NCBI GenBank assembly: GCA_024628785.1 | Contig: CP102405.1 | Location: 1,116,001 to 1,180,000, forward strand | Direction of reading: 5' to 3' | Source of the DNA: Fusobacteria bacterium ZRK30 | Lineage (GTDB): Bacteria > Fusobacteriota > Fusobacteriia > Fusobacteriales > Fusobacteriaceae | DNA: 64,000 nt | Part shown: piece by piece, positions 2,021 to 56,992 of the stretch | Layout: the number at the start of each line of letters is the position of its first letter | How positions within the stretch are numbered: position 1 is the stretch's first letter | The notes under the pieces: model-generated | The model's input: only the letters and a program-made list of their open reading frames with translations | What the model was told of the DNA's origin: nothing | The model's database searches: none | Position numbers and translations under genes: made by a program

Positions 2021-2557
2021 TTAATATTCAATAGATTTAAAGGTTTGACCATCTAGATCTTTAATTTCCCAAGAGGAGGAAGTTAGGATTCCATATGAAT
2101 TGGAATTTCCACCCTTTGGAAGGGTTATAGATCCCGGGTTAAATATAAAGATATCTTTTTTTTCTGCCAATGGCAGGTGGGTGTGGCCGGAGATCAGAAT
2201 ATCACCCTCACCTATGGGAAGTTTTTCCTCGGTAAAGAGGTGACCGTGGGTAGCAAAGATACGTTTATTTCCTAAAAATAAATTAGTGAAATCACTCATA
2301 ACAGGAAACTCTAAAAGCATCTGGTCTACTTCGCTGTCACAGTTTCCCCTCGTAGCTATGATCTTATTCTTATAGAGATTCAATTTTTCAGCAACTAACT
2401 TTGGGTTGTAATCTGTAGGAAGGGGATTACGTGGTCCATGATAAAGGATATCTCCTAATATGAGGATGTAATCTGCCGCCTCTCTCTTAAAACATTCCAA
2501 TGCTTTTTCCAGGTAGTAAATTGAACCATGTATGTCTGACATAACAAATATTTTCAT
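2021..2557 (-). CDS. yfcE: YfcE-type metallophosphodiesterase
   Basis: A 178-aa cytoplasmic calcineurin-like phosphoesterase. The metal-binding motifs of the family are all present: MSDIHG near the N-terminus, GDILYHG, RGNCD, ATHGH and SGHTH. E. coli YfcE hydrolyses phosphodiesters in vitro, but its natural substrate is not settled. The gene starts one base after the galE stop on the same strand, so both are likely on one transcript ending at the terminator at 1944-1988. The gene symbol is by family resemblance. Confidence 0.85.
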   Translation of the reverse strand: MKIFVMSDIHGSIYYLEKALECFKREAADYILILGDILYHGPRNPLPTDYNPKLVAEKLNLYKNKIIATRGNCDSEVDQMLLEFPVMSDFTNLFLGNKRIFATHGHLFTEEKLPIGEGDILISGHTHLPLAEKKDIFIFNPGSITLPKGGNSNSYGILTSSSWEIKDLDGQTFKSIEY

Positions 2558-13675: not shown

Positions 13676-13704
13676 TTGTAATTTTATGGAAAAAGTGATA
13701 TAAT
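13676..13704 (+). promoter_or_regulatory. Promoter of the purine permease transcript
   Basis: TTGTAA (13676-13681) and TATAAT (13699-13704) are separated by 17 bases. Transcription would start around 13711, just before the riboswitch. Confidence 0.65.
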
Positions 13705-13719
13705 CTTCTAAATAAAAAA

Positions 13720-13784
13720 ACTTATATAAATTTCGGATATGGCGAAAAGTTTCTACCAGCTACCTTAAAGAGCTGACTATAAGA
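13720..13784 (+). promoter_or_regulatory. Guanine-class purine riboswitch
   Basis: P1 is formed by CTTATA and TATAAG. The conserved core includes GGATATGG, AGTTTCTACC and a second hairpin ending in GCTGACTATAAG. The residue that pairs with the ligand is C (GACTAT), which in this family selects guanine or hypoxanthine over adenine. A terminator follows 32 bases later, so ligand binding should stop transcription of the permease at 14089. Confidence 0.92.
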
Positions 13785-13815
13785 AGATAGATACCTAATA
13801 TTTTAATATATATAG

Positions 13816-42967: not shown

Positions 42968-43018
42968 TTAGTTTTGCATCATTAGCATATTTAATTGTCC
43001 GATTCTTGAATTAATCAT
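42968..43018 (-). CDS. Met-rich leader-type ORF, second copy
   Basis: A 16-codon ORF, MINSRIGQLNMLMMQN, almost identical to the leader before the methionine operon. The DNA from 42977 to 43048 matches 56363-56434 at 71 of 72 bases, the one difference giving Ile instead of Val at residue 2. The last residues differ. An in-frame ATG further upstream (43057) would extend it to 29 aa. No terminator follows. It could be a regulatory leader left over from a lost gene. Confidence 0.45.
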   Translation of the reverse strand: MINSRIGQLNMLMMQN

Positions 43019-43048
43019 CTTAATCAGCTCACTTATTTTTATTTTTTT
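42977..43048 (-). repeat. 72-bp repeat carrying the Met-rich leader, copy 2
   Basis: Matches 56363-56434 with a single mismatch at 43015. Orientation is the same as in the methionine operon leader. Confidence 0.9.
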
Positions 43049-47513: not shown

Positions 47514-50500
47514 CTAATAAATAGAAATACCTAAATTTTCTTTCATTTTATTAAAATCAATTCCTCTGTGTTTTGCTAAAGATTCTACCTGATTTTTATC
47601 GATTTTTCCTAGATCAAAGTATTTGGCATTTTCACTGAAAAATAGGAGGCCGCAAACACTATGAATTGGTGTCATTGTATAGTTTGGACTAAGGGTTACT
47701 CCTAATTCCCACACATTCATCAGATCAAAGACCTCTTTTTTCATAGAGTGATCAGGTAACATCGGATAACCTACTGCTGGTCTTATCTTAACCTGGATGA
47801 TCTCATTTACATTTTTCTCTAGATGCTCTGCAGCAGCTTCTGTTAACCTGTTACCTAGTAATTTATACATAAGATCTTCATATTCTGTTTTTCCAGATAC
47901 AGTATCTATCGATACTGCAAAGGCTCCTATATAATCTTCATCTTCTATAAAGTCTGCCAGTGATAACGAAGTTTTCCATTGCTGGGTCCTTACCATGGGA
48001 AATTTTAGACCATTAATTTTTAGAATATCCATAGGTTTTCTCTCCACATTAAAAATCCCATATCTTGCAGATATCTTTAATTTTTTATCTTTTAATATTT
48101 CTAGATACTTTTTACCATCTATTAAAATATCTATCTCTTTAGAAGTATCCTTTATCTTCCAATCATGTAAAAATATATCCCAGTTGATATATTTTTCTAT
48201 ATCTGCAACAGTAATATTTAGATCGAATACACCTGTTTTAGATGGTTTTTTTACCTTGTTGATTATTTTTTCCCTTCTTTTAAAGGCTTCTTCTAAATTT
48301 AGGTAGGATCTCTCTTCTTCGGTTTTTTTATAGGCTTTTCTCAACTCTTCATATGAATTTAATATAGCAGATTTATATTCCAGATCTCCTCCTAAGATCT
48401 TATCTAATACAACTACTGTGTTAGAAGCATCTGTCAGATGAAATACACGACCATTATAATTTGGTTCTATTTTTATTGCAGTATGAAGGCTGGATGTAGC
48501 AGCTCCTCCAACAAAAAGTGGGATATCTATCCCTTCATTTTTCATCTTCTTAGCTACCCTTACCATTTCCTGTAGGGATGGTGTGATGAGTCCGCTTAAG
48601 GTAATGCCATCTACTTTATTATTTTTTACTGCAGCTATAATATTATCCATAGAAACCATTACTCCCAGGTCGATGATCCTATAACCATTGCACTCTAAAA
48701 CTGTTTTTACTATATTTTTTCCGATATCATGAACATCGCCGTCTACAGTTGCCATAACAATAGTTTTCTTATGTCCCATATCAATTTGTTCATTTTTAAT
48801 TGTGGGAGTTAAATAAGTTACAGCTTCTTTCATGATTACAGCACTTTTGACTACCTGGGGCAGGAACAACCTTCCAGTATTAAAATATTCTCCTACTTTT
48901 TCCATCCCTTCCATCAATATATCTTGTATTATTGAGATTGGAGAGTATTCCTTCAATAACAGGTCTATAAGAGGTGTTAAATTCAATTTATTTCCATTAA
49001 TCAAATTATTTATAATCTGAACCCTTGGATCGGATTCTTTTTCTTCTGTTTTAGGGGTTATTATCTTTTCGATCTGTTCATCTAACAATGAATCCAAGAT
49101 ATCTTCTGTATTCATGATCAGGCTGTAGATCTTATCTTCCAAAGATTTTTTTATCTTAACTGTCTTTTCTGCCGGATTCATTATTACCATATCCAGACCG
49201 CTTTCCTTGGCTAACCTTAAAAATACCTGATGAATTGCATGTCTTAATGGATTGTTACCCTTGAATGCAAATGAAACATTGCTTAATCCGCCACTTGTTT
49301 TGGCGTAAGGTAAATTTTCTTTTATCCATTTTATAGAGTTTATATAGTCTTTTGCATAATTTCTGTCTGTTTTTTCTCCCGTTCCAATTGTTAAAATATT
49401 TGTATCAAAGATAATATCAGCAGGGGAAAAATCTATTCCTAACAGCAGATCATAGGATCTTTTGGAAATTTCTACCTTTTTTTCAAATGTATCTGCCTGA
49501 CCCGTCTCATCAAAGGCCATAACCACCAGAGCAGCACCATATTTTTTTACTATTTCAGCTCTCCTGATAAACTCCTTCTCTCCGTCTTTTAGACTGAGTG
49601 AGTTGACAATTCCCTTAGAGGGAAGATTTTTTAACCCTTCCTCTATTATCACAAAATCCGAGGAGTCAATCATGATAGGGACCTTTGCATTGTCAGTAGA
49701 AGATAACAATAATTTTATATATTTTTTCATTTCTGCTTTAGAATCTATCAATCCATCGTCTAGGTTGAGGTCTAGGATATGAGCTCCGCCATTTACTTGA
49801 GTTCTTGAAATTTCTAAAGCTTCATCATATTTATTTTCCTTTATCAGCCTTGCAAACTTCCTGGATCCTGCGACATTATTTCTCTCTCCTACGACTAAAA
49901 ATCCATCTTCATCTAAAACTTCATTTCCCGAAATATTAAATTCTAAGTTTTTTTTCTTTGAAATTCGAGGTTTTTTATCTTTTACTGCTTCTGCTATGAG
50001 CTTTATATGTTTAGGAGTTGTACCACAACATCCTCCTATAATATTTATTCCTGAATCACTTATTAGGTCGTTTAAAATTTCTGCCATCTCTTCTGGAGTC
50101 TGACTATATTCTCCTATTTCATTGGGTAATCCGGCATTCGGATATATAGAGACAGGTTTATGGGTAAATTTCCCTAATTTATGGATCAGTGGTATTAATT
50201 CGGCAGCTCCAAAAGAACAGTTCAAACCAAAGGATAGGATAGAGTCCCTGTCTAGGGAAACAACCAGTGATTCCATAGTCTGTCCAGATAAAAGTCTTCC
50301 AAATTTATCCACTGTGGCTGAGATCATAATTGGAAGATTTTTTCCCTCCTCCTGAAAGACCTCCTCTGCTCCGACAACTGCAGCCTTTGCATTTAAACCA
50401 TCAAATATAGTTTCAATAAGGAGGAGATCCCCTCCTCCATGAAGGATTCCACGAACCTGTTTTTTATAGGCATCTTTTAATATGTCAAAATTCATTTCTG

Positions 50501-50939
50501 ATGAATCTATACTTATACTTTTATTAGAAGGACCTATAGAGCCTGCCACCCATACTTTTTTTCCAGTTTTTTCAAGATGATCCAAAACTGTAAGTTTAGC
50601 AAGTTTAGTTCCCTCTAAAGATACTTCATATGCCAAATCCCCCAGGTTATAATCTGCCATAGATATAGTGTTGCCATTAAAGGTATTAGTTTCTATAATA
50701 TTAGCTCCGGCCTCTATATAGCTGTTATAGATCTCCTTTATAATATCAGGTTTGGTTAGATTGAGGAGTTCATTAGCTCCTTTTAGTTTAGAAGGGAAAT
50801 CTTTAAACCTTTCACCTCTAAAATCTTCCTCGATTAAGTTATAGTTTTGAATAGATGTTCCCATAGCTCCATCTAAAACCATTATTTTTTCTTTTAAAAT
50901 CTGTTTTATATCCATATCGATATTCATATTCGTATTCAT
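47514..50939 (-). CDS. metH: Cobalamin-dependent methionine synthase
   Basis: An 1141-aa four-module enzyme that methylates homocysteine using 5-methyl-THF. Order: homocysteine/zinc module (GGCCGTTPKH, zinc Cys near 300), pterin module, cobalamin module with DVHDIGKNIV (cobalt ligand His737) and a C-terminal SAM-activation module (PMVRTQQWK, RPAVGYPMLPDH). It is a full-length MetH, slightly shorter than E. coli's. The ATG overlaps the lysC stop by four bases (ATGA). It is the last gene of the methionine operon. A Met-dense N-terminus (MNTNMNIDMDIKQ) is notable. Confidence 0.95.
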   Translation of the reverse strand: MNTNMNIDMDIKQILKEKIMVLDGAMGTSIQNYNLIEEDFRGERFKDFPSKLKGANELLNLTKPDIIKEIYNSYIEAGANIIETNTFNGNTISMADYNLGDLAYEVSLEGTKLAKLTVLDHLEKTGKKVWVAGSIGPSNKSISIDSSEMNFDILKDAYKKQVRGILHGGGDLLLIETIFDGLNAKAAVVGAEEVFQEEGKNLPIMISATVDKFGRLLSGQTMESLVVSLDRDSILSFGLNCSFGAAELIPLIHKLGKFTHKPVSIYPNAGLPNEIGEYSQTPEEMAEILNDLISDSGINIIGGCCGTTPKHIKLIAEAVKDKKPRISKKKNLEFNISGNEVLDEDGFLVVGERNNVAGSRKFARLIKENKYDEALEISRTQVNGGAHILDLNLDDGLIDSKAEMKKYIKLLLSSTDNAKVPIMIDSSDFVIIEEGLKNLPSKGIVNSLSLKDGEKEFIRRAEIVKKYGAALVVMAFDETGQADTFEKKVEISKRSYDLLLGIDFSPADIIFDTNILTIGTGEKTDRNYAKDYINSIKWIKENLPYAKTSGGLSNVSFAFKGNNPLRHAIHQVFLRLAKESGLDMVIMNPAEKTVKIKKSLEDKIYSLIMNTEDILDSLLDEQIEKIITPKTEEKESDPRVQIINNLINGNKLNLTPLIDLLLKEYSPISIIQDILMEGMEKVGEYFNTGRLFLPQVVKSAVIMKEAVTYLTPTIKNEQIDMGHKKTIVMATVDGDVHDIGKNIVKTVLECNGYRIIDLGVMVSMDNIIAAVKNNKVDGITLSGLITPSLQEMVRVAKKMKNEGIDIPLFVGGAATSSLHTAIKIEPNYNGRVFHLTDASNTVVVLDKILGGDLEYKSAILNSYEELRKAYKKTEEERSYLNLEEAFKRREKIINKVKKPSKTGVFDLNITVADIEKYINWDIFLHDWKIKDTSKEIDILIDGKKYLEILKDKKLKISARYGIFNVERKPMDILKINGLKFPMVRTQQWKTSLSLADFIEDEDYIGAFAVSIDTVSGKTEYEDLMYKLLGNRLTEAAAEHLEKNVNEIIQVKIRPAVGYPMLPDHSMKKEVFDLMNVWELGVTLSPNYTMTPIHSVCGLLFFSENAKYFDLGKIDKNQVESLAKHRGIDFNKMKENLGISIY

Positions 50940-52135
50940 TTGACCTCCTCAATTAATTTTCTATGAAGGAGGGATACCGCCTTTTCTAGATCTTTCTGCG
51001 GGATGATGCAGGAAATATTTATGTCTGATGAAGATACCATCTCAATTGAAATATTATTTTCAGATAATACTTTAAAAACTTGTGCTGCTACACCCTTTGA
51101 TTTTACACCTATTCCTATGACAGATACCTTCCCGAGATTTGGGAGATGAATTAGATTTTTTCTACTCTCAGGATATTTTTCTTCTAAAACTTCAAAAGCT
51201 TTTTCCAGTAACTCCTGTTTTAAGATACATGAGATCGTAGCGCCCCTTTCAGGATCAAAATCATGGGTAATGATATCTATATTATACCCTTTATTAGATA
51301 AGGTATTTATGACATCTACCAATCTATGGGGGGTGTCCCTTAAAGTTATTTTAGATAAATTTTTATTGTGGGTAATTCCTCTTATCACTTCTTTTTCCAT
51401 CTCATCTTCTCCCTTGACAATACTCCCTTTTTTCCATGAATATGAGGAGCGTAAATGTATTTTTATATTATATTTACAGGCCAGCTCCACACTTCTGCTA
51501 TGGAGGACTTTAGCTCCGTTCCCGGCCATCTCTATCATCTCACTATAGGTGATCTTATTGATCTTCTTAGCGTCTTTAACTACCCTTGGGTCTGCTGAAT
51601 AGATTCCATCAACATCTGTATAAATTTCTATTTCTTGTGCATCTAAAACTACTCCCAAAGCTACAGCAGTCGTATCAGAACCTCCCCGTCCCAGTGTGGT
51701 TATATTTCCATATGGATCAATCCCTTGAAATCCTGCTACAACAACTATATTCCCTTCCTTTAATGCTTTTTTTATCTTTCTGCTCTCTATATCTAAGATT
51801 TGGGCACAATTGTGATTACTGCAGGTCTTTATCCCTAGTTGTGCTGCGGTAAATGAAATGGCACCTTCCCCTAATTCCTCTATTGCCATAGCTAAGAGGG
51901 CTATCGATATTTGTTCTCCAGTTGACAATAGTACATCTAACTCCCTTTTTTTAGGAGTTTTAGATATATTGTGTGCTTTTTGTAGAAGGGTATCGGTATA
52001 TCCTCCTTGGGCAGATAATACAACGACTATATCATCTCCCAGTTTTTTTCTTTCTACTATTTTTTTAGCTATTTCTAATATCCGTTCTGTATTTTTTACA
52101 GAGGTCCCTCCAAATTTCTGAATAATAACTCCCAC
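50936..52135 (-). CDS. lysC: Aspartate kinase
   Basis: A 399-aa cytoplasmic enzyme that phosphorylates aspartate, the first step to lysine, threonine and methionine. VIIQKFGGTSVKN is the kinase signature, STGEQISIALLA the second motif and GRGGSDTTAVAL the third. Two C-terminal ACT domains (RDTPHRLVDVINTLSNKGYN and VSVIGIGVKSKG regions) allow feedback control. Position in a methionine operon suggests this isozyme is dedicated to Met supply. Its stop overlaps the metH start; metA precedes it by 27 bases. Confidence 0.93.
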   Translation of the reverse strand: MGVIIQKFGGTSVKNTERILEIAKKIVERKKLGDDIVVVLSAQGGYTDTLLQKAHNISKTPKKRELDVLLSTGEQISIALLAMAIEELGEGAISFTAAQLGIKTCSNHNCAQILDIESRKIKKALKEGNIVVVAGFQGIDPYGNITTLGRGGSDTTAVALGVVLDAQEIEIYTDVDGIYSADPRVVKDAKKINKITYSEMIEMAGNGAKVLHSRSVELACKYNIKIHLRSSYSWKKGSIVKGEDEMEKEVIRGITHNKNLSKITLRDTPHRLVDVINTLSNKGYNIDIITHDFDPERGATISCILKQELLEKAFEVLEEKYPESRKNLIHLPNLGKVSVIGIGVKSKGVAAQVFKVLSENNISIEMVSSSDINISCIIPQKDLEKAVSLLHRKLIEEVK

Positions 52136-52162: not shown

Positions 52163-52969
52163 TTATTCGATTATCATATTTAACCAATTTTTATAAAAAA
52201 TATCTCTGTGTTTATCCCAGGTAAATAAAATTTCTTTATCTGGATCATTATTTCTATAGTAGTTTTCAGGAATATTTTTGAGGTCTCTTCGATATTCTTT
52301 ATCTAACATGTCCATTTGATATTCACCATGTCCTGAGATATAGATATTTTTTAAGTCTTTTGTGGCTGCCATATATACTCCGGCTTTTTTATTTTCTGCG
52401 ATGATCATAAGACCTGCTCCTATAATATCCTCTTTTTTATTGTAGGTATTTCTAGAGTGAGGGGCATGAAACTCATCTAACTGAATCAGTTTATTTTTAT
52501 TAACTCTATGGTTAAAAATCCCGAATATCTTCTCTTTTAGCGGGTATTTTGAAATTTTATAGTGGTGATATAATGCTCCCTGGCTGGCCCAGCAAATGTA
52601 GATACTGGGAATATCCGAATTAAATACAGGTTTTAAGTTATCCCAATATTTTACCTCTTCAAATTTTATATTCTCTATAGGAGCCCCTGTTATAATCAAT
52701 CCCTGGTAATTCCTTTCCTCTAACTTACTGAGTGGAATATAGTTTTTTTCTATATATTCCATTGAGGTATGTTTTGAAATATGATTATCCGGGTATAAAA
52801 ATTCGACCTCTACTGTTAAACTATACCTGCCTAGGAGGTTAAAAAATTGAGATTCAACCTCCACCTTAAAGGGCATTAAATTTATTATTCCTATTTTTAT
52901 TTCAGCAGCAGATTTTTTTTTATTTTTAAAGAGGATACCACTGTCTTTAGAATCTTCTATACCTCTCAA
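52163..52969 (-). CDS. metA: Homoserine O-acyltransferase, MetA family
   Basis: 268 aa from a TTG at 52969; the true start is uncertain because the frame stays open upstream. NLMPFKVE, the catalytic Cys126 in ICWASQGALYHHY, HAPHSRNT and GHGEY are family motifs. At the acyl-donor position GAPIE carries Glu (residue 99), as in acetyl-CoA-using MetA of Bacillus and Thermotoga, where E. coli has Gly. So it probably makes O-acetylhomoserine, the substrate of MetY in the same operon. The N-terminus is 30 residues shorter than usual. Confidence 0.88.
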   Translation of the reverse strand: MRGIEDSKDSGILFKNKKKSAAEIKIGIINLMPFKVEVESQFFNLLGRYSLTVEVEFLYPDNHISKHTSMEYIEKNYIPLSKLEERNYQGLIITGAPIENIKFEEVKYWDNLKPVFNSDIPSIYICWASQGALYHHYKISKYPLKEKIFGIFNHRVNKNKLIQLDEFHAPHSRNTYNKKEDIIGAGLMIIAENKKAGVYMAATKDLKNIYISGHGEYQMDMLDKEYRRDLKNIPENYYRNNDPDKEILFTWDKHRDIFYKNWLNMIIE

Positions 52970-52994: not shown

Positions 52995-53870
52995 TTACTC
53001 TGCCTCCCCGATTCCTTTTCGAATATATTTTATGTTTTCTAAGATTCTTCTGGTCACATGGACCTTATTCATTGTATAGATATGAATTCCTTCTACCCCG
53101 GAAGCTATTAAATCTATGATTTGCTCTGTGGCATAGGTTATTCCAGCTTCTTCTAATGCCTTTGGATTGTCCTTAAATTTATCTAGTATAGCTTGAAATT
53201 TCCTTGGGATCCTTGCATTACACAGTTCCCTTACTTTTTGAATCTGTTTATAATTTGTCACAGGTAATATCCCGGCAACTAAGGGGATATTTAAATTTAA
53301 TTTTTGAGTTTTTTCCTTAAATGCATAAAAATCTTCATTATCAAAAAATAGCTGTGAGACTAAAAAATCTGTCCCAGACTCAACCTTTGTTTTCAGATGA
53401 AAAAGATCCAGAAGATCATTATTTTCAAAGTGTACCTCAGGATAAAAAGCTCCTGCCACAGAAAAATTATCTTCTTTTTTTATGTGTTTTACCAGATCAC
53501 TGGCATAGCTGAAGTGTGAATCATGGATTTGATCTCTGGGAATGTCTCCTCTAAGGGCTAAGATGTTTTTTATTCCATTATTTTTTAACTGTGTCAGAGT
53601 AGTATTTATAGACTCCTTGGTAGCACCTATACAGGTTAGGTGAGCCATGGTTTCTATTTTGTTTATATTTTTTATTCTCTTGGTTATCTCCACAGTCCTG
53701 CTCTGACTGGTTCCCCCTGCTCCATATGTGACACTTATATAATCGGGTTTTAGTTCAGCCAGCTCATCGATAGTTTTATATATTTTTTCTATGGGGAACT
53801 TATTGTTTGGAGGGAAAATCTCAAATGAGATTACGGTTTCTTTATTTTTAAATATGTCTTTTATCTTCAT
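52995..53870 (-). CDS. metF: 5,10-methylenetetrahydrofolate reductase
   Basis: A 291-aa flavoprotein that makes 5-methyl-THF for MetH. SFEIFPPNNKF at the N-terminus, YGAGGTSQSRT, MAHLTCIGA and LALRGD are MetF signatures, with the FAD-binding beta-alpha barrel spanning the whole protein. Length is normal. It is third in the operon, 64 bases after metY, and supplies the methyl donor for the last gene. An AGGGAGAA site precedes the ATG. Confidence 0.95.
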   Translation of the reverse strand: MKIKDIFKNKETVISFEIFPPNNKFPIEKIYKTIDELAELKPDYISVTYGAGGTSQSRTVEITKRIKNINKIETMAHLTCIGATKESINTTLTQLKNNGIKNILALRGDIPRDQIHDSHFSYASDLVKHIKKEDNFSVAGAFYPEVHFENNDLLDLFHLKTKVESGTDFLVSQLFFDNEDFYAFKEKTQKLNLNIPLVAGILPVTNYKQIQKVRELCNARIPRKFQAILDKFKDNPKALEEAGITYATEQIIDLIASGVEGIHIYTMNKVHVTRRILENIKYIRKGIGEAE

Positions 53871-53934: not shown

Positions 53935-55206
53935 TTATTTGGAGCTTGTTATTGCATTTTCCAGGTCTCCTATGAGATCATCTATATTTTCTAATCCTAT
54001 TGAAATCCTTATCATATTTGGTTTTATCCCTGTTGCTTTTAATTGTTCATCACTTAACTGGCTATGAGTTGTACTTGCAGGATGGATGATTAAAGATTTT
54101 GCATCTGCTACATTGGCCAGATGGGAAAATATCTCCAAATTTTCTATAAATTTTTTTGCTCTTTCCTTTCCCCCATGTAATCCAAGGGTGAATATCGATC
54201 CGACACCTTTTTTATAATATTTATTGGCTAATTGTTTCTGTTCTTTTTTTGTAAATTCTGGATGAGTTATCCAGTCCACTTCTGGATGGGAGTTTAGATA
54301 TTCAGCCACTTTTTTTGAATTTTCTACATGTCTTTCTACCCTGAGTGAAAGGGTTTCAATCCCCTGTAAGATCAAAAAAGCACTAAAGGGGGAAAGAGCC
54401 GCTCCTGTATCCCTTAATAACCTTACCCTTGCTTTTACTATAAATGCCTGATCTCCTAAATCTGAATAGATCAGATTATTGTATCCGGAATCAGGGATAT
54501 TAAATGATTCAAATTTATCATCTTTCCAATCAAAATTCCCACCATCTACGATAACTCCTGCTATTGTAGTCCCATGACCTCCTAAAAATTTTGTAGCTGA
54601 ATGGACTACTATATTAGCCCCATGTTCAATGGGTTTTATTAGATAGGGTGTTCCAAATGTGTTATCTACAACTAGGGGCAGACCATGTTTTTTAGCTACT
54701 TTTGATATGGCATCCAGGTCGACTATTTGTCCTGTTGGATTTTCTAATGTCTCTATAAAGATCACCTTTGATTTTGAAGTTATGGCGTCTTCTAAGGTCT
54801 TTAGGTCGGATGTGTCGAAGAACCTTGTTTTTATCCCAAAATCTTCTATTGTATTGGATAAGAAGTTATAACTCCCCCCATAGATTCCCTTTGCTGAAAC
54901 TATCTCATCCCCTGATCTGGCAATAGTCAGAAGGGCATAAGTTATAGCTGCCGATCCCGAGGCAACTGCCAATCCTCCTACCCCACCTTCTAATGCCGCT
55001 ACCCTTTTTTCTAATACCTCAGTTGTAGGGTTTCCAATCCTTGTATAGATATTTCCTTTTTCTTCCAGGTTGAATAACCTAGCTCCGTGATCTGTATCCT
55101 TAAAAGTATATGACGCAGTCTGATAGATAGGTACTGCCCGGGCTCCCGTTAATGTATCTTTTACTTGTCCTGCATGTAATTGTAATGTCTCAAATTTAAA
55201 ACTCAT
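53935..55206 (-). CDS. metY: O-acetylhomoserine sulfhydrylase
   Basis: A 423-aa PLP enzyme that condenses O-acetylhomoserine with sulfide to homocysteine. FKFETLQLHAGQ and YTRIGNPTTEVLEKRVAALEGG start the Cys/Met-metabolism fold; the PLP lysine lies in HSATKFLGGHG near 205. The long MetY-type insertion (FNIPDSGYNNLIYSDLGD) separates it from MetB/MetC. It follows hom after 40 bases. Together with MetA of the acetyl type it gives direct sulfhydrylation, so no MetB/MetC step is needed. Confidence 0.93.
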   Translation of the reverse strand: MSFKFETLQLHAGQVKDTLTGARAVPIYQTASYTFKDTDHGARLFNLEEKGNIYTRIGNPTTEVLEKRVAALEGGVGGLAVASGSAAITYALLTIARSGDEIVSAKGIYGGSYNFLSNTIEDFGIKTRFFDTSDLKTLEDAITSKSKVIFIETLENPTGQIVDLDAISKVAKKHGLPLVVDNTFGTPYLIKPIEHGANIVVHSATKFLGGHGTTIAGVIVDGGNFDWKDDKFESFNIPDSGYNNLIYSDLGDQAFIVKARVRLLRDTGAALSPFSAFLILQGIETLSLRVERHVENSKKVAEYLNSHPEVDWITHPEFTKKEQKQLANKYYKKGVGSIFTLGLHGGKERAKKFIENLEIFSHLANVADAKSLIIHPASTTHSQLSDEQLKATGIKPNMIRISIGLENIDDLIGDLENAITSSK

Positions 55207-55246: not shown

Positions 55247-56206
55247 TTATCTTTGCCAGCTTCTACTGTTTATCACCTTATAGAGATCTGAAACTACTGC
55301 ATTTGCTGTAGCACTTCCTCCTGCACCTTCACCATAAAAAATTGTCTTTCCTGTATAACTTCCCTCTATTTCCACAGCATTGTATATTCCATTGACCTCG
55401 TAGAACAGTTCATTTTTTCCTACTAATGTTGGTTTAACAGATAGGGTTATCTTTTCTGTTAGTTCATCTATTACAGCTTCTCCTAATAATTTATATTTCT
55501 GGTTGTTCTTAGCAGCTTTTTCTATATCTTTGGCTGTTAATCCTGTGATTCCATCTATTTTGATCTCTCTAAATTCTTTTATTTCTCCCCAAGCCAGGTA
55601 ACTCAGTAAACTTATTTTATGAGCAGAATCAATCCCTTCAACATCAAACGCCGGATCTGCTTCAGCATATCCTTTCTCAGTTGCATCTTTTAAAGCTTGT
55701 TTATAACTGGCTCCCTCACTCATCTGTGTCAAAATATAATTTGCTGTTCCGTTTAATATTCCCCTTATTTTTTTTAATTTATTGGGAAAGAGGGATTCTT
55801 TTAGGGGAGACAATATAGGTATTCCTCCCCCTACAGCAGCCTCAAAAAAGATTTTTACATCTTTTTCTTTTGCCAGCTGGAATAACTCATTTCCATGGAC
55901 AGCTAAAAGCTCCTTATTAGCTGTGACCAGGTTTTTTTCTGCTGTTAGAGTTTTTCTGGCGATCTCTAATGGAATCTTTATCCCCCCTATTAATTCGATG
56001 ACGGTATCGATAGAGGGATCCTCTATTACCTCTTTATAGTCAAAAGTAAATAAATAATCTTCATATACTTCCCTGGCTGTTCTATTACAAATTTTTATAA
56101 CTTCGATCTTTTCTCCTAATAATTTTTCTATCTTTGCCCTCTGGCAAGAAATAATACTAAGAACCTCCCTTCCTACAGTACCTATTCCAATAATTCCAAC
56201 TTTCAT
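55247..56206 (-). CDS. hom: Homoserine dehydrogenase without ACT domain
   Basis: A 319-aa NAD(P)-dependent enzyme that reduces aspartate semialdehyde to homoserine. VGIIGIGTVGREV is the Rossmann motif, GGGIPIL and GILNGTANYILTQM the catalytic core, and AEADPAFDVEGIDSAHK the substrate site with its Lys. It ends after the catalytic domain, lacking the regulatory ACT domain of longer Hom proteins, so allosteric control by threonine is unlikely. It is the first gene of the methionine operon, behind a Met-rich leader and terminator. Confidence 0.93.
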   Translation of the reverse strand: MKVGIIGIGTVGREVLSIISCQRAKIEKLLGEKIEVIKICNRTAREVYEDYLFTFDYKEVIEDPSIDTVIELIGGIKIPLEIARKTLTAEKNLVTANKELLAVHGNELFQLAKEKDVKIFFEAAVGGGIPILSPLKESLFPNKLKKIRGILNGTANYILTQMSEGASYKQALKDATEKGYAEADPAFDVEGIDSAHKISLLSYLAWGEIKEFREIKIDGITGLTAKDIEKAAKNNQKYKLLGEAVIDELTEKITLSVKPTLVGKNELFYEVNGIYNAVEIEGSYTGKTIFYGEGAGGSATANAVVSDLYKVINSRSWQR

Positions 56207-56228: not shown

Positions 56229-56264
56229 GTAAAATAAAAAAGCCTGCGGAGTTTCCCACAGGCT
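56229..56264 (-). terminator. Attenuator terminator before the methionine operon
   Basis: On the minus strand AGCCTGTGGGAAACTCCGCAGGCT forms a stem of about ten pairs followed by TTTTTATTTTA. It ends 22 bases before the hom start. Upstream, GAACAGACTCGT/ACGAGTTTGTTC (56285-56321) and CTTAAATT/AATTTAAG (56321-56341) form two further hairpins. Confidence 0.85.
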
Positions 56265-56350
56265 TTCTACTTAAAGATGCTTGTGAACAAACTCGTAAGT
56301 TACTACAAAACGAGTCTGTTCTTAAATTTAAAAAATTTAAGTTACAAACT

Positions 56351-56404
56351 CTACCAAAGCATCATCATTAGCATATTTAATTGTCCGATTCTTGAATTAA
56401 CCAT
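56351..56404 (-). CDS. Met-rich leader peptide of the methionine operon
   Basis: A 17-aa ORF, MVNSRIGQLNMLMMMLW, between a promoter and a terminator, 145 bases before hom. Residues 11, 13, 14 and 15 are Met, clustered near the stop, as in leader peptides of amino-acid attenuators. An AAGTGAG stretch ten bases before the ATG is a weak ribosome site. The Met-codon segment GATGCTT (56363-56357) can pair with AAGCATC at 56282-56276 just before the terminator. Ribosome stalling on Met codons would free the region and could prevent termination. No S-box or T-box consensus is seen here. Confidence 0.65.
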   Translation of the reverse strand: MVNSRIGQLNMLMMMLW

Positions 56405-56434
56405 CTTAATCAGCTCACTTATTTTTATTTTTTT
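56363..56434 (-). repeat. 72-bp repeat carrying the Met-rich leader, copy 1
   Basis: Matches 42977-43048 with one mismatch. It covers the leader ORF up to codon 14 and about 30 bases before its start. Confidence 0.9.
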
Positions 56435-56479
56435 CTTCAGATTAAAACTTTTTTGTTACTAAAGTTTTAATTTTTAAAC

Positions 56480-56508
56480 ATTCTAGCATAATTTTTTTTA
56501 TATGTAAA
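56480..56508 (-). promoter_or_regulatory. Promoter of the methionine operon
   Basis: On the minus strand TTTACA (56508-56503) and TAGAAT (56485-56480), with TATGC before the -10 (extended -10), are separated by 17 bases. Transcription would begin about 65 bases before the leader ORF. Confidence 0.65.
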
Positions 56509-56799: not shown

Positions 56800-56940
56800 A
56801 TGATTTTAACTAATATCTTATCTATAAATTTATTATTATTGCTGCTGTTATTATTATTGCCATTAGGCTGCAAGCAATTGAATAGATTAAAAATGATATT
56901 GGGAAAATTATATACTTTTGAACACCCTGTTTTAAAATAA
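56800..56940 (+). CDS. leuL: Leucine-rich leader peptide of the leu operon
   Basis: A 46-aa ORF with a perfect GAGGAGG ribosome site. Codons 11-20 are ten consecutive Leu, and 18 of 46 residues are Leu; Ile appears four times. It precedes two terminators and leuA, the classic layout of a leucine attenuator. GGCTGC at 56866-56871, just after the Leu run, and GCTGC at 56841 can pair with GCAGC in the first terminator (56964-56968) and are candidate antiterminator strands. The symbol is by analogy with enterobacterial leuL. Confidence 0.8.
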   Translation: MILTNILSINLLLLLLLLLLPLGCKQLNRLKMILGKLYTFEHPVLK

Positions 56941-56960
56941 TTGGGTAGAGTATAACTATG

Positions 56961-56992
56961 ATGGCAGCTGATATTATTGGCTGCTTTTTTTT
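56961..56992 (+). terminator. First attenuator terminator of the leu operon
   Basis: GCAGC and GCTGC enclose an 11-base AT-rich loop and are followed by eight T, 20 bases after the leader stop. Confidence 0.75.

Follow-up and report, generated by a model that had tools for sequence, protein, structure and literature searches.

A methionine-rich leader ahead of the hom-metY operon of Fusobacteria bacterium ZRK30 and its relatives in Fusobacteriota: a proposed family of ribosome-mediated transcription attenuators

Leader RNAs as sensors of amino acids

In the attenuators of Enterobacteria (trp, his, thr, phe and pheST) an ORF containing cognate codons is combined with alternative hairpins and an intrinsic terminator. 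T-box RNAs bind tRNA directly, read it through a single specifier codon and control biosynthesis, transport and synthetase genes. SAM riboswitches, Met T-boxes or MetJ are generally regarded as the regulators of methionine metabolism in bacteria. Leader-peptide attenuation itself is already known.

The RNA family discussed here includes the leader of a methionine operon found in a 64,000-nucleotide stretch of the Fusobacteria bacterium ZRK30 genome (hereafter the window). It resembles the attenuators of Enterobacteria in its cognate-rich short ORF, alternative hairpins, terminator, and biosynthesis and synthetase targets, but differs from them in the presence of Met, Tyr, Asn and Pro versions, in a homologous core that is re-tuned by swapping the codon run, and in an extra switching step (pairings 2:3, 3:4 and 4:5) with a further helix, P1, over the sensing codons. 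With T-boxes it shares the use of one RNA design for many amino-acid specificities and similar gene classes; however, the sensor is a translated codon run instead of direct tRNA binding. In related genera metY is preceded at the same position by SAM-I riboswitches (RF00162), but these are metabolite aptamers.

Among published proposals, that of a metL leader ahead of metNIQ in Streptomyces lividans is similar in that a Met-containing ORF precedes these transporter genes. However, the Met residues of the metL peptide are scattered and mixed with Cys and Thr, the transcript is leaderless, the authors themselves report the lack of a typical Rho-independent terminator, and neither an alternative fold nor conservation is given in the accessible text (PMC8079986). 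The uORFC-8-2 (cysS) and uORFC-13-1 (aroF) elements are also ribosome-mediated attenuators predicted by comparison, in a survey that took in a Fusobacteria genome, but each is bound to one gene and to another taxon in the part of the report available (PMC8632094). A 2010 attenuator survey dealt with leader peptides from Proteobacteria and Actinobacteria, with a His case added in Firmicutes (PMC2965389), and in the accessible sections of a study of Actinobacteria the methionine operons are described as having no conserved RNA structure upstream (PMC1262725). In the open-access literature searched no leader-peptide attenuator of Fusobacteriota and no Asn or Tyr leader was found, and the survey of Lopatovskaya et al. 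(2010) might list some of either. As far as this literature reaches, part of it in incomplete text, the occurrence in Fusobacteriota, a Met version with a terminator and a conserved fold, the Tyr and Asn versions, and a homologous, re-tuned series appear to be new.

The methionine leader of the window

The features of the leader and of the operon behind it are collected in table 1.

Table 1. Leader and methionine operon of the window (window coordinates).
Feature	Position	Strand	Basis or remark
Leader span	56508-56230	(-)	
Promoter-like site TTTACA-17 nt-TAGAAT, TG before -10 (extended -10)	56508-56480	(-)	10/12 matches
5' hairpin, upstream of leader ORF	56441..56471	(-)	fold; outside modelled family core
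Leader ORF MVNSRIGQLNMLMMMLW, 17 codons + stop	56351..56404	(-)	ATG at 56404, TAG 56353-56351
P1 5' arm GAUGCUU, over last Met codons and Leu16	56357..56363	(-)	fold, covarying helices
Element 2 GAGUUUGU, starts at last base of stop codon	56344..56351	(-)	alternative partner of element 3
Small AU hairpin separating elements 2 and 3	56321..56341	(-)	fold and covariation
Element 3 AACAGACUCG, common to 2:3 and 3:4	56311..56320	(-)	
Element 4 CGAGUUUGUUCAC	56283..56295	(-)	partner of 3 (terminating) or 5 (antiterminating)
P1 3' arm AAGCAUC	56276..56282	(-)	fold, covariation
Element 5 GUGGGAAACUC: terminator loop with part of the 5' arm and the first 3'-arm base	56249..56259	(-)	
Intrinsic terminator and U tract, 14 pairs	56233..56266	(-)	terminator scan, fold, family covariation
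hom, homoserine dehydrogenase	55247..56206	(-)	best NCBIfam match
metY, O-acetylhomoserine (OAH) sulfhydrylase	53935..55206	(-)	best NCBIfam match
metF, methylenetetrahydrofolate reductase	52995..53870	(-)	best NCBIfam match
metA, homoserine O-acyltransferase	52163..52969	(-)	best NCBIfam match, score under curated cut-offs
lysC, aspartate kinase	50936..52135	(-)	best NCBIfam match
metH, cobalamin-dependent methionine synthase	47514..50939	(-)	best NCBIfam match

An earlier note, based on the sequence alone, had recognized a 17-codon ORF with four Met residues within codons 11-15, and re-reading of the coordinates places them at codons 11, 13, 14 and 15 after the starting Met (56374-56372 and 56368-56360), with MMM as the longest run of identical residues and GTGAG as the ribosome binding site upstream of the start. 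The three hairpins and the U-tract terminator it described were also recovered, the minimum free energy of the leader being −60.2 kcal/mol (z −4.93), a stability reached by 0 of 200 shuffles, and the order hom-metY-metF-metA-lysC-metH agrees with the profile matches of all six genes. The proposed extended -10 promoter fared less well: the site is present, TG included, but the surrounding 1.4 kb contain 13 promoter-like sites by the same scan as compared with 7.0 in shuffles, so that its function as a promoter is suggestive only.

No Rfam family reaches its gathering score at the window leader, where sub-threshold matches are to the trpB motif (28.4 of 59 bits), Thr_leader (21.4 of 55) and BSR0739 (24.1 of 191 bits, E 0.0072), and the SAM-I aptamer was not found at this locus. 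The T-box (RF00230) has no match at the window leader and is absent from the 17 leader loci scanned, and MetJ (PF01340) was found in none of 61 genomes, including the window's, with a positive E. coli control. As in the earlier note, no SAM riboswitch, T-box or MetJ control is visible here. SAM riboswitches are present in 83 of 98 Fusobacteriota genomes and in the genus of the window; the single match in the window's genome precedes an ECF-type transporter, not the Met operon. T-box matches reach the cut-off in 2 of the 98 genomes and E≤0.001 in 20, the window's genome being among the latter, below cut-off. One sub-threshold T-box match (74.1 of 93 bits; L195, G000:C1:493452-493626) lies ahead of a gene for a class II aminoacyl-tRNA synthetase of the D/K/N group, which by eye looks like asnS.

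Other elements of the window deserve mention. A purine riboswitch at 13702-13799 (+) is its sole Rfam family at gathering score. Divergent from the Met leader, a Leu-run leader ORF (MILTNILSINLLLLLLLLLLPLGCKQ...) is found at 56800-56985 (+). Its terminator lies at 56963-56985, and the operon that follows looks by eye like leuA-leuC-leuD-leuB-ilvE; similar ORFs are present in two sister genomes. Since this Leu-run leader is absent among the matches of the family model R3 described below, it is probably a separate attenuator.

Codon runs and downstream genes across Fusobacteriota

A DNA search of the 98 genomes showed that three sister genomes carry orthologues of the leader, placed before hom or metY. 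The window peptide is identical in two of them, and the third keeps the frame through a one-codon insertion; the same-genus peptides read MVNSRIGQLNMLMMMLW, MYNSKIEQLNILMLMMLW (extended by one in-frame codon) and M(K/R)NxxFRQLN(M/I)MMMLWKGL. Paralogous leaders precede metNIQ in six genomes, one of which has decayed transporter genes, and the gene of methionyl-tRNA synthetase in two; the window's genome has both kinds (MetG scores above the NCBIfam cut-off, MetN is a best match under its curated cut-off). When twelve leaders from the genus are aligned as DNA, the gaps that fall between start and stop are of 3 bases. The leader-controlled metG of the window's genome (L109 1874-3551) consists of two shorter ORFs, as compared with one of 558 aa in a sister genome, reflecting either real decay or a sequencing error. 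In other genera, the regions upstream of hom are mostly inside coding sequence; weak DNA matches to the leader were mostly of low complexity, and five (L161-L165) were dropped as unrelated.

Covariance models were built stepwise, R1 from eight leaders, R2 from 28 R1 matches and R3 from 51 R2 matches, one of these 51 training rows being a false match (L134:318-398) that also sits among the 103 rows of alignment A6. With R1 a second genus (g3) was reached, in which diverged Met leaders, e.g. MFNKAMKTTMMNMMPLGVGTKN, precede metY, lysC, a peptide-binding protein and metNIQ, and with R2 a third (g25), where metY is preceded by MINYKYINDNMMMYMRYRV and metE by MIKYKYFNNNMMMYMRV. Met-rich leaders are therefore found in three genera ahead of metY/hom, metNIQ, metG, metE and lysC, and the conservation of Met codons that the earlier note had proposed to look for is observed, in that they are kept while the flanking peptide and RNA differ.

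R3 gave 134 matches (E≤0.01) in 50 of the 98 genomes and 13 of 29 genera, and ahead of genes that serve other amino acids the RNA design is kept and the codon run is changed. Runs of HHHHH precede hisZ or the gene of an amino-acid binding protein, YYYYY tyrS or an AGCS symporter gene, NNNNN asnA, PIPP putP, WYFYYYF the DAHP synthase gene, TTTIII asd-hom and MCMC a sulfite/nitrite reductase gene, so that Met, His, Tyr, Asn, Pro, Thr/Ile, Cys and aromatic specificities are represented. Eight matches are in the window's genome, ahead of hom, metN, metG, an AGCS gene (a tandem pair), an amino-acid binding protein gene (His run), tyrS and asnA. The classes of tyrS and of the His-binding protein emerged only with R3 and are absent from its training rows. 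Gene names derive from profile searches of representatives and BLAST to them, with HisZ and MetN under curated cut-offs. Matches that lack the leader anatomy (those of G028 and G029 with R1, those of G097 and antisense terminator matches) were not counted as leaders.

Some arrangements are of interest on their own. Two Tyr-run attenuators stand in tandem ahead of one AGCS symporter gene (L184, L182, L183, L167). At L192 (1000-1633) a Thr/Ile-run leader (MFRLTITTTIIIM) is followed by a tandem glycine riboswitch and then by asd-hom. At L159 (about 2050-2225, minus strand) an aromatic-rich short ORF, MSLRNFRAIFWFTYYFKTKVYI, and a terminator-like hairpin precede a membrane-protein-like gene.

The match between codon run and gene was quantified with leader ORFs chosen by a fixed start and ribosome-site rule, blind to the downstream gene, although the list of ribosome sites was compiled after the first leaders were known. 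The rule was applied to 131 of the 134 matches, the other three being G008:C89, whose ORF was read separately, and two G097 matches. Training rows of R3 make up 50 of the 131, 49 recognized by locus and one under another locus identifier, and the other 81 include many close orthologues. An ORF is present in 130 of 131. Runs of at least three identical residues occur in 106/131 leaders, 8.9% of 1310 shuffles and 12/129 opposite strands, and runs of at least four in 76/131, 0.8% and 0/129, respectively. By taking as leader residue the one most over-represented in any six, and comparing it with the amino acid of the downstream gene, agreement was found for 78 of 78 leaders whose gene has an independently known amino acid, corresponding to 27 of 27 genus-by-gene combinations, whereas 10,000 permutations averaged 5.9 and reached 15 at most. 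The gene-to-residue table behind these figures was set after all leaders were known, allows DAHP synthase F/W/Y, asd T/I and the reductase C/M, and scores hom and lysC as Met genes though they serve several amino acids; with hom, lysC and asd removed, agreement is 71/71 leaders and 23/23 combinations. Outside the comparison are 49 leaders whose genes provide no independent answer (28 with SBP family 3, 20 with AGCS and one with SBP family 5) and four unassigned ones, three at a contig end or decayed gene and one without ORF. At the level of sequence comparison the ORF, its frame, the codon runs and their agreement with the downstream gene can be regarded as established.

Both synonymous codons are used within the runs (TAT/TAC 109/41, CAT/CAC 138/19, AAT/AAC 81/8), and pairwise differences by codon position are 405, 307 and 555, the third being the most variable. 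Non-synonymous codon differences within leader groups exceed synonymous ones (630 versus 344, pairwise), the excess coming mostly from freely varying residues outside the run, where the peptide is loosely held. These patterns bear on the possibility that the finished peptide acts in the exit tunnel, as in a TnaC-like nascent-peptide arrest sensing free methionine or SAM. Within the genus the peptide around the Met run is indeed conserved (QLNM...LW), but across genera the residue run is all that is common (KTTMMNMMPLG, NDNMMMYMR), and for many of the other specificities the run is a plain homopolymer and its flanks are unrelated, which makes arrest of this type very improbable. Slightly less credence still can be given to a metabolite riboswitch, in which the conserved RNA would be a methionine or SAM aptamer and the ORF incidental: the core is well conserved in the genus and its covarying helices are long, as expected of such an RNA, but the same core precedes asnA, tyrS, hisZ, putP and other genes with a changed codon run, synonymous codons interchange within the runs, and no Rfam riboswitch was found at the scanned leaders. 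The pattern that according to the earlier note would have contradicted ribosome-mediated attenuation, namely an RNA that is kept while the frame or the Met codons are lost, is the opposite of what was found. The exception is a fragment in the window itself, a 72-base copy of the start of the leader ORF (42977-43048, minus strand, 99% identical, reading MINSRIGQLNMLMMQN) that is without the rest of the leader, including the terminator, and looks like a remnant.

The distribution at metY illustrates how leaders and SAM-I riboswitches relate on the same gene. Among 28 metY matches in 25 genomes, 11 have a leader ahead of metY, directly or through hom, and SAM-I precedes metY at 11 of 20 scanned loci, in related genera. 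None of these 11 SAM-I loci has an R3 match beside it, and a nearby SAM-I is excluded at 9 of the 11 leader loci, with one unlisted SAM match in each of G007 and G008; a metY locus with both leader and SAM-I was not seen. As for the remaining six loci, in G087 the leader stands upstream, before metE, a contig end truncates G011, G039 and G062 show neither leader nor SAM-I, and in G051 and G053 metY is preceded by a Met/Cys-rich ORF of a different kind. In genus g13, Met/Cys-rich ORFs (MSTTRFNLAALGCMCMMDMCMEMHM... at L197 623-772 and MMMCRMCMCMMMC... at L198 671-763) with a terminator-like hairpin ahead of metY have no R3 match and are possibly an independent Met/Cys attenuator.

It is likely that an ancestral attenuator RNA radiated in Fusobacteriota by codon-run replacement, giving homologous ribosome-read sensors of at least eight specificities and a translation-based counterpart of the T-box. 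Such a counterpart would have up to eight copies in one genome, occur in tandem and exchange with SAM riboswitches on the same gene.

Alternative pairings and the proposed switch

MAFFT misplaces arm 4 between subfamilies, and for this reason the count of covariation used an alignment fitted to the model. Such an alignment is biased in favour of the fitted pairs, a bias that spares the 2:3 count alone. In the terminating fold 36 of 36 pairs show two-sided changes (103 model-aligned rows, one of them false; alignment fitted), and 89.4% of cells are paired as compared with 35-49% when partners are slid, again on the fitted alignment. For the 2:3 pairing, unused in the fit, the values are 88.3% and 36-48%, but 83.9% of cells are still paired after shuffling within columns. 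Double changes from G-C to A-U are found at two positions (59 cells), five of the eight pairs vary on one side only, and neither the number of pairs with a double change nor that of further pair types is above shuffles. RNAalifold chose 2:3 unprompted from twelve leaders.

Element 5 is the target of element 4, and for the resulting 4:5 pairing the own terminator arm beats those of other subfamilies (2 of 720 permutations of six representatives are as good, identity included). In a duplex test on the 111 testable leaders of 131 (the other 20 lack the loop motif or a usable hairpin) the mean z was −2.29, and 61% of the leaders fell below p 0.05. The signal is weak for Tyr leaders (mean z −1.32, n=22), and Pro leaders fail the test (mean z +0.98, n=10), their matches seemingly stopping short of the terminator. 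In L115 a compensatory double change in 4:5 replaces C-G by U-A. From these comparisons 2:3, 3:4, P1 and the terminator appear to be conserved, and 4:5 is supported by the duplex tests and the one compensatory change. The pairing of GATGCTT with AAGCATC, in which the earlier note had seen the means for a stalled ribosome to shift the fold, does close the terminating fold and covaries in the fitted alignment. However, this P1 helix is a helper, and the main switch is 2:3 versus 3:4, followed by 4:5 versus the terminator. The matching of terminator and 4:5 partners within each subfamily, along with the position of all 78 copies with a known-amino-acid gene ahead of the cognate gene, leaves hardly any room for an action in trans of the terminated leader or its peptide instead of a cis attenuator, despite several similar copies per genome and the published precedent of the Sinorhizobium trp leader peptide peTrpL, which is reported to act in trans (PMC7298713).

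The ribosome-mediated attenuator in cis was also considered from the standpoint of folding. With the window RNA extending to the terminator apex, the calculated probability of 4:5 is 0.86, 0.65, 0.64 and 0.34 with Met11, 13, 14 and 15 in the A site, the last two values depending on the assumed footprint (Met15, 0.76 at +11 but 0.30 from +14 on; Met14, ≤0.37 at +15 and +16), and 0.21 with the ribosome at the stop codon. The probability of 3:4 increases from 0.12 (Met11 stall) to 0.97 (stop codon). With no ribosome 4:5 is preferred at this stage (0.92), so that basal termination without translation is not predicted there. In the full-length RNA the terminator is favoured, with 0.92-0.98 at ten ribosome positions and 0.95 without ribosome, and explicit energies are −39.8 for the terminating and −21.9 for the antiterminating fold. 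Thus, read-through would have to be kinetic.

Other leaders behave differently in these calculations. Those of metN, metG and Asn in the window's genome adopt 3:4 in every state tried; in its His leader 2:3 switches with ribosome position while pairing onto the terminator arm is found in all states, and the latter also persists in all states tried for the g3 metY leader. Mutually exclusive pairing set by ribosome position is supported for the window leader and for the family, with five other leaders lacking a full equilibrium switch. The remaining hallmarks of an attenuator, namely an ORF with a ribosome site, a kept run of cognate codons and an intrinsic terminator before the first gene, are all present.

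According to the mechanism that we propose, with ample Met-tRNA the ribosome would reach the stop codon and cover element 2, so that 3 would pair with 4, the terminator would be free to form and transcription would end before hom. With scarce Met-tRNA the ribosome would stall on codons 11-14, and the free element 2 would capture 3; the released element 4 would then pair with the 5' arm and loop of the terminator (4:5), and the polymerase would read through into the operon. In the family as a whole, a common RNA design would be tuned by its codon run to whichever amino acid the gene behind it serves. Anatomy and comparison lend the mechanism good support, which thermodynamics alone does not; stalling, sensing of tRNA, read-through, a response to starvation and the kinetic preference are its presumed components. 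Ribosome-mediated attenuation by the Met-rich leader, as first suggested in the earlier note, is the best reading of the data, and we estimate at roughly 0.93 the probability that the window leader is a transcription attenuator measuring charged Met-tRNA, as one member of a phylum-wide series.

For methionine, this adds a leader-peptide answer to the problem of control that spans synthesis, uptake and the tRNA synthetase. More generally, since the RNA design recurs across the phylum with a codon run matched to the gene, it looks like a re-tunable, ribosome-built amino-acid sensor. As what seems to be one chassis re-tuned by codon-run swap, it also implies that leader ORFs can predict the substrates of unassigned transporters. 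His is the predicted substrate of SBP family 3 proteins (e.g. L210 522-1313) and Tyr that of AGCS symporters (e.g. L184 2030-3403), for both of which profile libraries assign no single substrate. Finally, the evolution of attenuator specificity and the replacement of one regulator by another on the same gene become directly testable through this family.
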